A stretch of 64,000 nt of DNA from Sulfobacillus benefaciens (GTDB taxonomy: Bacteria; Bacillota; Sulfobacillia; Sulfobacillales; Sulfobacillaceae): the NCBI GenBank assembly GCA_003023725.1, contig PXYT01000001.1:186001-250000 (forward strand), written 5' to 3'. The position numbers and the translations under genes are program-made. Numbering within the stretch: position 1 is the stretch's first letter; the number at the start of each line of letters is the position of its first letter. Below are positions 53,343 through 58,019 of the stretch, piece after piece. The notes under the pieces are model-generated. The model was given only the letters and a program-made list of their open reading frames with translations, was not told where the DNA came from and searched no databases.

Positions 53343-54107
53343 GTGTCCGAACTTGGTTCCCACATGACTCCGGCAAAGACGTCTGACGAGACAACCAGCC
53401 GAAAAAGGAAACTGTGGCATCTTGAACGCCCGCATCTGTACTGGCCTTGGTGGGTCATGCTGACCATGGTCGTAATGGTGGCACTGGCCGCGTCTTATTT
53501 CATGGGAATGCTCTCCACTCTTTCCTCGGCCCATTCATTATTAACCAGTTTGCACAACCAATTGAATGCCGTGGACAGAGAAAAAGCCCGTCTCGGAAGA
53601 GAGGCCCAACTACTGGGCGTGCTGCAGAGTCTGCGGACGGGGCACTGGGATTCGCCTCTTGCGTGGCTCATCCTCGCACCCCAGGCTTTATGGCTGGGTA
53701 TAGGCCTTGTGGTAGGTGTAGGTGTTAGCGCAGTCTTTCACCGTCGGCGGTATAAAGCCTTGAAAACCGCTTCTTCCAATACCAGGTATTCCGAGAGTTT
53801 CACCTCACCCAATACCAGGCAATCCGAGAGTTTCACCTCACCCAATACCAGGCAATCCGAGAGTTTCACCTCACCGCCGCCTCCCCCCGCCGATCCCCCC
53901 TATTCCCATTCATACACCCAAAACTCTCCTACAACCGAACAGGGCGGCAAGGCTCGCTCAACGGGTCCCCAGTGGCTCAAAGAATTTGTTGGACTGGTCC
54001 TATGGGTCATTGTAGTGGCGGGCTTAGCCTTTGTTATTGTTCATGTCGCATTAGTGTGGGGCAGCAACTTCCCTGCTCATTTTTCCAATTTTTCGCGGTT
54101 GTTCTGA
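53343..54107 (+). CDS. Membrane protein with an in-frame 11-residue repeat
   Basis: A 254-residue protein that begins at GTG after GAAGGTGA. Three membrane helices are predicted: WWVMLTMVVMVALAASYFMG, ALWLGIGLVVGVGVSAVF and LVLWVIVVAGLAFVIVHVAL. Between the second and third helix is a Ser/Thr/Pro-rich linker with three copies of an 11-residue unit ending in SESFTSP, then a polyproline run. A short coiled segment (LLTSLHNQLNAVDREKARLGREAQLL) follows the first helix. Function unknown. Its 3' end overlaps the convergent gene by 31 bp. Confidence 0.65.
   Translation: MSELGSHMTPAKTSDETTSRKRKLWHLERPHLYWPWWVMLTMVVMVALAASYFMGMLSTLSSAHSLLTSLHNQLNAVDREKARLGREAQLLGVLQSLRTGHWDSPLAWLILAPQALWLGIGLVVGVGVSAVFHRRRYKALKTASSNTRYSESFTSPNTRQSESFTSPNTRQSESFTSPPPPPADPPYSHSYTQNSPTTEQGGKARSTGPQWLKEFVGLVLWVIVVAGLAFVIVHVALVWGSNFPAHFSNFSRLF
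53778..53876 (+). repeat. Three tandem 33-bp repeats inside a membrane protein gene
   Basis: Units at 53778-53810, 53811-53843 and 53844-53876. Copies two and three are identical except at the last base; copy one differs at two positions (GGTATT for GGCAAT). Each unit encodes 11 residues and keeps the frame, so copy number can change without breaking the gene. Confidence 0.9.
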
Positions 54108-54492: not shown

Positions 54493-55995
54493 ATGGTTAT
54501 CATTACCGAAAACCCGATACTTGCCATCATAGACATCGGGTCTAATTCACTGCGATTGATGGTTGCCAAACGCCTCAAAGAAGGAGGCGCCGTCATCGTC
54601 GATGAACGAAAAGAAACGCCCCGGCTGGCACTGGCGAAAGACACGGAAGGGTTTCTCACCCTCGATGGGTTTTCGCGCCTTATCCAGGCTCTGCAGTATT
54701 TTCGCGACGTGGCTCAGGCCTTTAACGCCGATCCCATTATTGTTCGCGCCACCGCGGCTCTTCGCAACCTTGCCAACCAGCAACAGGTTCTGCAGGAAAT
54801 CAATCGGCAAACCGGGTTAACGGTGGAAGTTTTGTCCGGCGATGAAGAAGCCGCCATTGGGTTTCTAGCCGTCAAGAATTCCATCCCGCTTACCAAAGGA
54901 TGGACCATTGATGTCGGCGGCGGAAGCACCGAAATTGTCAGCTACGAGAACGGAGACATTCGTCATCAGCGTTCATTCGCGTTTGGAGCGGTGTCCTTGT
55001 CCTCTCTCAATCTTTCCCTCACAGATATGATGTCCTGGGTCCAGGAACAGTATGCGCAGGTTAACTGGTTGCAGACGAGATCCCCGCAATCGATTGCTCT
55101 AGGGGGAAGCGCCCGCGTCATGGCGCGATCAATCCAGCATGAATCGGAATACCCGCTCCAGCAAATTCATGCGTTCCGAGTACCGACCGTGGTTATTGAC
55201 GCCTGGTTGGCTAAAATTGCACTCATGACGCCCGACCAACGAAAAAAAGTCGCCCACATACCCAAAGATCGGCTAGACATTATTGTTCCGGGAATCGCTA
55301 TTATTCTGGGCTTATTAAAAACTACCCAATCGGATACGTTAACAATAAGCGGCTATGGTCTGCGTAACGGATTATTATTGCAACACATGGAATCCAATAC
55401 CCCGACCTTTCCCTCCCTAGCGCTGGATAGTGCCTGGAATGTTGCCTTGCGCAGTGAATGGCCCTCGGGACTGACTAAAGCGCTTCAGGAGCAGGTATCG
55501 CAGCTGGGAAAAGCCGTCAAAGGACTTCTGGGACTGTCCGAGCGCTCCATGGAATTGGTTCAGTCCGCCGCACTGCTTCGCTACTGCGGACGTAATGTCA
55601 ATATGTATCATTGGGATCGGCACACATTTTACCACATCTTGGGTTCCTCTTTGACGGGGCTCAATCACCAAGAATGGGTATCAGTGGCGTTAATAGCGTC
55701 CTACCGGTCGTCCAAACGTCTGCAAAAGTTTTGGAGCCCGTTCTCAAGTATTGTCAGTCGTGAACAACTTGTCCTGGTTCGCAAATTGGGAGTACTGCTG
55801 CGTCTTGCCGAAATTTTTTCGGCGCCATCCATGAATGGAGTGGAACGGCTGAGTGTGCAACACAGTAATAAACAACTGATTATTACGGTGTCTGGTACCG
55901 GTATTTCCTGCCCCATTGAGGAACTGAAAGATGTAGCCAAAGACATCAAAAAAAGTTGGCAAATGAAACTCGTTGTGCCAGGATTACTGAACTAG
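54493..55995 (+). CDS. ppx: Exopolyphosphatase (Ppx/GppA family)
   Basis: About 500 residues. The N-terminal ASKHA-fold phosphatase domain shows AIIDIGSNSLRLMVAKR, VRATAALRNLANQQQVLQEI, LSGDEEAAIGFLAV and DVGGGSTEIVSYENGD. A central IIVPGIAIILGLLKTTQSDTLTISGYGLRNGLLL follows. The C-terminal part, about 170 residues, is HD-like but without a clear HD pair. It removes phosphate from polyphosphate or pppGpp. The ATG at 54493 has AGGGAG very close, so the exact start is uncertain. It leads a four-gene run with two kinase-like genes and a free HD domain. Confidence 0.88.
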   Translation: MVIITENPILAIIDIGSNSLRLMVAKRLKEGGAVIVDERKETPRLALAKDTEGFLTLDGFSRLIQALQYFRDVAQAFNADPIIVRATAALRNLANQQQVLQEINRQTGLTVEVLSGDEEAAIGFLAVKNSIPLTKGWTIDVGGGSTEIVSYENGDIRHQRSFAFGAVSLSSLNLSLTDMMSWVQEQYAQVNWLQTRSPQSIALGGSARVMARSIQHESEYPLQQIHAFRVPTVVIDAWLAKIALMTPDQRKKVAHIPKDRLDIIVPGIAIILGLLKTTQSDTLTISGYGLRNGLLLQHMESNTPTFPSLALDSAWNVALRSEWPSGLTKALQEQVSQLGKAVKGLLGLSERSMELVQSAALLRYCGRNVNMYHWDRHTFYHILGSSLTGLNHQEWVSVALIASYRSSKRLQKFWSPFSSIVSREQLVLVRKLGVLLRLAEIFSAPSMNGVERLSVQHSNKQLIITVSGTGISCPIEELKDVAKDIKKSWQMKLVVPGLLN

Positions 55996-56017
55996 ACAAG
56001 ATGAGGAGTGTTTCACA

Positions 56018-56713
56018 GTGCCTGATGAACACCATATATTTCCTGGACGCTTAGTTGTGGTGGAAGGAACTGACGGTTCGGGCAAAAGCACCGCGATCAA
56101 CCTGCTGGAGGACTGGCTCAGAGCAAAAGGATATCCGGTGTACCGCACCGCATGGAACAGTTCACCATTGATAAAGCCCTTCATGCGCCATGCCAAGAAG
56201 AAGCAGTGGCTGGATCCAGCGGCATTCAGTCTGTTGCATGCAAGCGACTTCTATGACCGTCTTGATCGCCTGATTGTTCCGCGCCTCCATGCGGGCTTCG
56301 TTGTTTTAGCCGACCGATGGGTCTATACGGCCTGGGTGCGAGATCATGTCAGAGGACTCGATTTGAATTGGGTTAAGACACTCTACAATGATGTGCCCCG
56401 TCCCGACTTGGCCATCTATTTTTCAACGCCCCCCGACATTGCGATTGCGCGCCTCAAGCATGCTTCCCGGAAGCTGAAGTATTATGAAAGCGGTCAGGAC
56501 ATTAGCGGATTGCGAGACCCGTGGAGCAGTTTCCTGTGGTTTCAGGAACAGATGCGGGAAGCGTACCTGGTTCTCGTCGAACAAGGACACCTGCAGTTGC
56601 TGGACGCCACCTTGCCCATATTTGAACAGCAAAAAATCGTCCGAAGCTGGATGACGCCAATGCTGGATTCCCTCGCGTTGTTGCCGCAGTTTCTGGACAG
56701 TCCCCATCAATAA
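56018..56713 (+). CDS. Thymidylate-kinase-like protein, intact P-loop
   Basis: A 231-residue P-loop kinase of the thymidylate kinase fold. Walker A is GTDGSGKS (residues 17-24). VVLADRWVYTAWVRDHVRGLD is the DRW/Y motif near the substrate site, and PDLAIYFSTPPDIAIARL is the following strand. The LID region KHASRKLKYYESGQD is basic. Sequence past this point departs from true Tmk. It starts 23 bp after ppx. The location suggests that it phosphorylates something linked to polyphosphate; dTMP is not certain. Confidence 0.75.
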   Translation: MPDEHHIFPGRLVVVEGTDGSGKSTAINLLEDWLRAKGYPVYRTAWNSSPLIKPFMRHAKKKQWLDPAAFSLLHASDFYDRLDRLIVPRLHAGFVVLADRWVYTAWVRDHVRGLDLNWVKTLYNDVPRPDLAIYFSTPPDIAIARLKHASRKLKYYESGQDISGLRDPWSSFLWFQEQMREAYLVLVEQGHLQLLDATLPIFEQQKIVRSWMTPMLDSLALLPQFLDSPHQ

Positions 56714-56745
56714 CCCCTAATGCCGACGAAAGGAGGACAACAGTT

Positions 56746-57438
56746 ATGCCGAAACCTGTTCATACCGTCCAGCCAGAGTGGTCCCGTGTTCCTCCTTACT
56801 ACGACGGTCTTTACGTCGGAATCGACGGACTCGATGGTTCAGGACGCACGACTCTCGCTTTGGCATTGAAAACCCGGTTGCAATCGGAAGGTTATCCCAC
56901 CGTGGTTGTGACGCCGTTCCCCAACACCCGAACCCACCAATTCATCACGCAAGTCAAACACGATCGGCGTTTGCACGCCAAGAGCCGGCATTTACTGTAC
57001 GCCAGTCTCTTTGCCATGACAACCCAACACGTCATCCTGCCCCATCTCACCGCAGGATATGTCGTCTTGTCCGATCGTTCATGGCTTAGCCTCTATGCCC
57101 GTGCTGTGGCACAGGGATTGGACACAGCCTGGGTGCGTACGACTCTGGGATTTGCGCTGGTTCCCGATATGATCATTGAGCCTCAATCGGATCCATTGTC
57201 GGTTTCCAGGCGAAAACTTACGGTATCGGATTCCTTAGATACCCTCGAATCCGCTCCTAATCGCAACAGTTTCGAAGGATTTGTGGAATTTCAGACGCAG
57301 ATCCATGACATTTTGGAAGGGCTCAAAGGAGAGGCAGACTGGCATCTTCTGAATCTTCAACCGGACCCTTCCCTGGAGATAGACCGTATCGCGCACCATA
57401 TTATTTCGCAATTGGAAGGAAGCGATGCGCCATCTTAA
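56746..57438 (+). CDS. Thymidylate-kinase-like protein with an altered Walker A
   Basis: A 230-residue paralogue of the preceding gene product, 33 bp downstream with AAAGGAGG. The P-loop reads GLDGSGRT (residues 28-35): Arg34 replaces the Walker A lysine, which is nearly invariant in active kinases. VVLSDRSWLSLYARAVAQGLDTAWVRTTLGFALVPDMIIEP follows the same order as in its neighbour. It lacks the tyrosine-rich LID of that protein. It may be a non-catalytic partner of its neighbour, though an Arg-based active site cannot be excluded. About 17 bp separate it from the HD gene. Confidence 0.7.
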   Translation: MPKPVHTVQPEWSRVPPYYDGLYVGIDGLDGSGRTTLALALKTRLQSEGYPTVVVTPFPNTRTHQFITQVKHDRRLHAKSRHLLYASLFAMTTQHVILPHLTAGYVVLSDRSWLSLYARAVAQGLDTAWVRTTLGFALVPDMIIEPQSDPLSVSRRKLTVSDSLDTLESAPNRNSFEGFVEFQTQIHDILEGLKGEADWHLLNLQPDPSLEIDRIAHHIISQLEGSDAPS

Positions 57439-57455
57439 CCTATACGGAGCACTTA

Positions 57456-58019
57456 ATGCGAAGGTACCAGGTCGATCTTCCCCACGCGGTTCACGTTGCT
57501 CGTTTGTCATTGCAATTGTATAACCCGCTCATGGCTCTTTTAGACTGTCCCTTGGACAATTTATGGCGGGAATGTCTGGAAACAGCCGCTCTTCTTCACG
57601 ATGCCGGCTATTTTGTCAATCAAAAGGGGCATCATCGGCATAGCCGATATCTCATCCGTCACGCCGAAGAAACCCAATACTGGGAGCCATCGACGCGCGA
57701 ATGTATCGCCGGGCTGGCCTATTACCACCGCAAGGCATTGCCCGCAAAAAAATTGCGGGAGCTATCCAAAAATCCGACATGGATGGCATTAGCCGCGATT
57801 TTAAGAATCGCGGACGGACTGGATCGTTGTCATTGTCAAAAAGTGACCGTTCAACACATTAAAATAAGCTCCCATACTGTCGAACTTATCGTCACGGGGC
57901 TACAAAGAGAGCCTTGGGACCATGTTCTGCGTATAAAGTCCCAAGGCTTCCAAGAGGCCTTTCATCGTCAGTTCCTTATTCGCGACCCCACCTTAACTAA
58001 TTTCCCGCTGCGCGTCTAA
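57456..58019 (+). CDS. Stand-alone HD-domain protein of the Ppx/GppA C-terminal type
   Basis: A 187-residue protein. RRYQVDLPHAVHVARLSLQLYN and ETAALLHDAGYFVNQKGHHRHSRYLIRH carry the HD pair (HD in LLHDAG) and the H-x-x-H-S motif of the domain that normally ends Ppx/GppA proteins. IADGLDRCHCQKV completes it. Here it is a separate gene: the start ATG has GGAG 6 bp upstream, and the frame differs from the previous gene. It may act with the upstream Ppx or as a phosphohydrolase of its own. It ends 22 bp from the convergent malic enzyme gene. Confidence 0.75.
   Translation: MRRYQVDLPHAVHVARLSLQLYNPLMALLDCPLDNLWRECLETAALLHDAGYFVNQKGHHRHSRYLIRHAEETQYWEPSTRECIAGLAYYHRKALPAKKLRELSKNPTWMALAAILRIADGLDRCHCQKVTVQHIKISSHTVELIVTGLQREPWDHVLRIKSQGFQEAFHRQFLIRDPTLTNFPLRV

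Follow-up and report, generated by a model that had tools for sequence, protein, structure and literature searches.

A conserved four-gene cluster in Sulfobacillus benefaciens as a probable polyphosphate cycle module

Here, we present an analysis of four adjacent genes, PPX, KA, KB, and HD, in a 64,000-nt stretch of the Sulfobacillus benefaciens genome (the window). We conclude that these genes probably constitute a polyphosphate (polyP) cycle module, in which KA, a kinase resembling the family 3 polyphosphate kinase (PPK3), works with the partner protein KB, the phosphatase PPX, and an HD protein acting in trans. We base this conclusion on the observed conservation, orthology, motif changes, gene neighborhood, and absence of PPK1 and PPK2, from which we infer the reaction, the KA-KB heterodimer, and what the HD protein does. 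New in our findings are (i) the conserved KB partner with its K-to-R substitution; (ii) the breadth of the pair across bacteria; and (iii) the split HD domain.

The cluster and its conservation

The four genes (Table 1) all lie on the plus strand and are separated by 22, 32, and 17 bp. Positions, spacing, and Pfam domains agree with the initial annotation, which described a tight set of ppx, two kinase-like genes, and a free HD gene; the sequence also confirms the normal P-loop that was read in KA and the Walker A Lys-to-Arg change in KB. A promoter scan gave no promoters above shuffled sequence; terminator-like sites were slightly more frequent than in shuffles but were dispersed, lay largely on the minus strand, and were set aside. 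Upstream, at 53776-53875, a 33-bp unit occurs three times in tandem (97% matches) within a membrane-protein ORF (53343-54107) and gives a repeated SESFTSPNTRQ.

TABLE 1 Features of the cluster (positions in the window)
Gene	Description	Position	Strand	Domain matches and motifs
PPX	Ppx/GppA exopolyphosphatase-like, 500 aa	54493..55995	+	PF02541 5e-49; Ppx-GppA_III 2e-6
KA	Thymidylate-kinase-fold protein	56018..56713	+	Thymidylate_kin 2e-22; Walker A GTDGSGKS; WNSS motif
KB	KA paralogue, thymidylate-kinase fold	56746..57438	+	PF02223 3e-14; GLDGSGRT, Arg for Walker A Lys
HD	Free Ppx domain III protein	57456..58019	+	Ppx-GppA_III 2e-23; HD 4e-7 (Pfam)

The order PPX-KA-KB-HD is found in all eight genomes of the genus that were searched (this genome and seven others), and the genes flanking the cluster also agree among them wherever the sequence extends that far. 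In two genomes from other families of the class (G057 and G047), the order is KA-KB-HD-PPX. The same order recurs in further families (L199-L204), often with PPK2 close by; some of these loci lack a separate call for every gene, and the second kinase of L202 comes from the genome search only. Thus, the conserved neighborhood that the initial annotation proposed to look for exists within the genus and in other families, with a changed order in the latter. Because the set is kept while its order changes, a joint function is indicated. Recurrence of the four genes in the seven congeneric genomes and, elsewhere in the class, in other families argues that the cluster is more than a chance arrangement. 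Based on the least saturated genome pair, dN/dS is ~0.06-0.10 for all four genes, indicating purifying selection.

A kinase pair outside the canonical thymidylate kinases

KA and KB are most likely mislabelled by family as thymidylate kinases (TMKs). The search for a true tmk elsewhere, advised in the initial annotation, identified a canonical one on contig C112 of the same genome (138.7 bits). In a tree of 110 proteins, KA and KB fall outside 37 canonical bacterial and archaeal TMKs (split 100/100); KB forms one group with a support of 99/98, and KA one group with a weaker support of 66/83. The REP/EP motif of the dTMP site, which follows the second strand and is present in the canonical TMKs examined, is missing in both proteins; at this site, KA has WNSS (W, N, and S in 89/89), while KB has other residues. 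Because of the canonical tmk on C112 and the tree position of KA, KA as the housekeeping Tmk is ruled out, and the earlier view of KA as unlike canonical Tmk is supported by a clade of its own in a genome in which it is not the only tmk.

The predicted structures of KA (pLDDT 91.5) and KB (pLDDT 91.3) are both TMK folds. The top Foldseek match of KA is Sulfolobus tokodaii ST1543 (TM 0.84), which is also its best PDB match by sequence (E 1.6e-52). ST1543 is itself a KA, with a sequence identical to that of the KA in locus L190; both its deposition and its publication describe it as a thymidylate kinase. That publication, the fold, and a score for KA barely above the cut-off of the dTMP kinase model TIGR00041 (84.0 versus 83.25 bits) would fit a reading in which KA serves as an additional Tmk, either a plain nucleoside monophosphate kinase or one of broad specificity, with KB as a decaying, redundant copy. 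We regard this reading as very improbable given the separate canonical tmk, the lost REP/EP motif, and the distinct KA clade; moreover, polyP genes adjoin the pair, and KB, which is under purifying selection, retains its Arg across phyla.

We scanned 84,980 species with a KA alignment and kept the best 80 loci, which are the most query-like and not a random sample. These loci come from more than 10 bacterial and archaeal groups, including Acidobacteria, Chloroflexi, Nitrospira, planctomycetes, Thaumarchaeota, and Melainabacteria. Of the best 80, 79 have another kinase-like gene adjacent or close to KA; KB is downstream of KA in 77 of these 79 tandem loci, most commonly with a 4-nt overlap, and a PPX gene sits between KA and KB in one of the best 80. 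The Walker A Lys is present in all KA proteins compared (89/89). At the same position, KB has Arg in 76/89, Lys in 11/89, and Gly or Cys in 2/89, the last two being members of the class. Most KB proteins in the clade keep the Arg, in bacterial as well as archaeal phyla; in Sulfolobales, KB has Arg or Lys, and the KB of Sulfolobus acidocaldarius reads SSGKT. This conservation and the dN/dS values rule out that KB is a decaying copy.

Pairs with Lys in both proteins are found at L065, L080, L099-L101, L109, L110, L113, L114, L119, and L120, with no polyP gene nearby. Their hosts are Gastranaerophilales and, in addition, a single Clostridiaceae genome. A polyP gene is nearby in none of these 11 Lys-type pairs, compared with 55 of the 69 other loci, a contrast whose p value is too favorable because the 11 are related to each other.

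As far as the sequences go, Lys in 89/89 KA and Arg in 76/89 KB support the suggested pairing of a catalytic protein with one having an altered active site. We suggest that KA is the catalytic subunit, a PPK3-like polyphosphate kinase on a thymidylate kinase fold, and that KB arose as an ancient KA paralogue in which a conserved Arg replaced the Walker A Lys, giving a non-catalytic or altered subunit. TMKs pair with themselves, and KB probably associates with KA in a similar way; its proposed role would be to bind the chain, complete the lid, or regulate activity. A competing view that concerns only the role of KB, and otherwise overlaps with the polyP module, is that KB is an active kinase using Arg in place of the P-loop Lys, perhaps with polyP as the donor, so that the pair would be two enzymes. 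KB retains the DR motif in 88/89, the lid Arg in 89/89, and the lid Glu in 88/89, and the 11 KB proteins with Lys as well as the SSGKT of S. acidocaldarius also fit an active enzyme. However, P-loop kinases usually cannot do without the Walker A Lys, the two class members have Gly or Cys at this position, and the Sulfobacillus KB is also changed at several positions that are invariant in KA; we therefore consider an active KB possible but doubtful.

Polyphosphate genes around the pair and in the genome

Within 6 kb of the best 80 loci, we found PPX at 39, CHAD at 31, SixA at 31, and PPK2 at 4. At least one of these four genes is present at 55/80, and 25/80 have none of them in the available sequence, some of these loci being short. 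Pfam checks on example neighbors agree, with the CHAD of S. acidocaldarius below the curated cut-off. A thaumarchaeal pair (L198) lies near genes for a PHO4 phosphate transporter and a PhoU-like protein and also near PPX, CHAD, and SixA. With polyP genes adjoining the pair, KA outside Tmk, and tmk elsewhere in the genome, our data support the earlier proposal of a polyP-linked set as opposed to plain dTMP phosphorylation. That proposal also invoked a new phosphate-rich signal or nucleotide; because polyP itself fits, this addition is superfluous.

In this Sulfobacillus genome, we detected no match to PPK1 (TIGR03705), none to PPK2 (PF03976), KA and KB included, and no CHAD protein at an E value of 0.001. 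The genome has a second, weak Ppx/GppA-like match (G000 C86:32994-33311; L005). PPK2 is present in 22 of 154 genomes of the class, of which 20 are among the 29 with a KA-KB pair (p 3e-16), often a few kb from the pair; by family, all five families with PPK2 also have the pair (p 1e-5). PPK1 was not found in the class except for one partial match, and PPK1 as the source of polyP is ruled out on this basis. Among 50 pair-bearing genomes elsewhere, PPK1 is missing in 38, a count uncorrected for MAG completeness, and complete in at least 11; thus, the pair is not always the sole synthase.

The linkage to PPX and PPK2, together with the likely reversibility of the reaction, could also mean that KA/KB is PPK2-like, using polyP as the phosphate donor for a particular nucleotide and consuming rather than synthesizing polyP. 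This is unlikely in our opinion, as it would leave this genome and three relatives without a polyP synthase yet with PPX. Under the preferred polyP module, KA would catalyze a reversible phosphate transfer linking ATP/ADP with the polyP chain end. More tentatively, and with somewhat less than even confidence, we speculate that KA and KB represent an ancient heteromeric polyP kinase of bacteria and archaea with an obligate KB partner, in which the Arg would hold polyP, and that it is the main synthase in many PPK1-less bacteria.

The genome that we take to be S. thermotolerans Kr1 (G005) has PPK2 at C1:2741738-2742409 (L158) and gave no PPK1. By its authors' account, this strain contains polyP granules (PMC6803676). 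Since no PPK1 was found, the published "ppk" of S. thermotolerans in that report is probably the PPK2 gene at L158.

In Sulfolobales, the pair lies in a SixA-PPX-KA-KB-CHAD operon (L192, the genome of which we take to be S. acidocaldarius), and KA overlaps ppx by 4 nt at this locus. The thymidylate-kinase-like gene directly 3' of ppx in S. acidocaldarius and S. tokodaii belongs to the KA clade (66/83). Hofmann et al. reportedly described an archaeal PPK3 from S. acidocaldarius (2024 preprint; J Biol Chem 2026); this enzyme is presumably the ppx-adjacent KA gene. The initial statement that no role had been described for such a set is not supported, as the KA clade holds the ppx-adjacent kinase of the source species of this PPK3. 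The ppx of S. acidocaldarius is Saci_2018 (PMC7831078), and PPX, dTMP kinase, and CHAD appear in a similar neighborhood in a figure legend (PMC10892726). A family 3 polyphosphate kinase from S. acidocaldarius is cited to Hofmann et al. in the context of polyP synthesis (PMC11677633, PMC13318637). For the PPK2 of Francisella, the nearest non-PPK2 structures include 2PLR and 4NZY, the S. tokodaii KA (PMC4748334).

The free HD protein and relation to known systems

PPX matches the exopolyphosphatase model TIGR03706 at 1e-71, under the model cut-off, and within the module it would take phosphate off the ends of polyP chains. The initial annotation listed a separate copy of the HD domain usually fused to Ppx. 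The free protein is confirmed, with intact motifs (LLHDAGYF, HHRHSRY, and ADGLDR); in addition, PPX itself still carries the C-terminal domain III and has lost the HD residues (LLRYCGRN versus LLHDAGYF in the free protein). The same holds for every class member examined that has a free HD gene: the HD residues are lost in PPX and intact in the free copy. In bacteria, many of the PPX proteins encoded next to KA-KB carry domain III in fused form and retain its HD residues; none of the HD motifs were seen in the PPX of Sulfolobales. Most simply, this would mean that one function has been divided between two proteins, and we suggest that the free HD protein provides in trans the chain-binding domain III function lost in PPX, supplying a chain-binding or hydrolytic site.

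PPK1 is lacking in many of the bacteria and archaea in which polyP genes are present. If KA/KB is the polyP kinase of these organisms, then proteins that are usually given the name thymidylate kinase would represent a missing polyP synthase across many phyla, and the partner with Arg in Walker A would make the idea of a catalytic/pseudo-enzyme pair directly testable. In the acidophilic, metal-resistant Sulfobacillus, KA/KB would then supply the polyP that has been proposed to contribute to metal tolerance.

Among known systems, the PPK3 of S. acidocaldarius is linked to the cluster by the ppx-adjacent kinase of that species, which is in one clade with KA; however, the archaeal operon includes SixA and CHAD, whereas the bacterial Sulfobacillus cluster lacks CHAD and has a free HD protein. 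PPK2 (PF03976) is a P-loop kinase with a related fold and keeps genomic company with the pair in the class, but neither KA nor KB gives a PF03976 match, and the substrate-site motifs differ. PPK1 (TIGR03705) presumably catalyzes the same reaction, the synthesis of polyP from ATP, but belongs to an unrelated family that is absent from this genome. With thymidylate kinase (TIGR00041), KA shares the fold, Walker A, and DR motif; it differs in lacking REP/EP, in its separate clade, and in coexisting with a canonical tmk. Finally, compared with exopolyphosphatases with a fused domain III, Sulfobacillus has the same domains in total; here, however, domain III is duplicated, with the HD residues absent from the PPX copy and intact in the free one.
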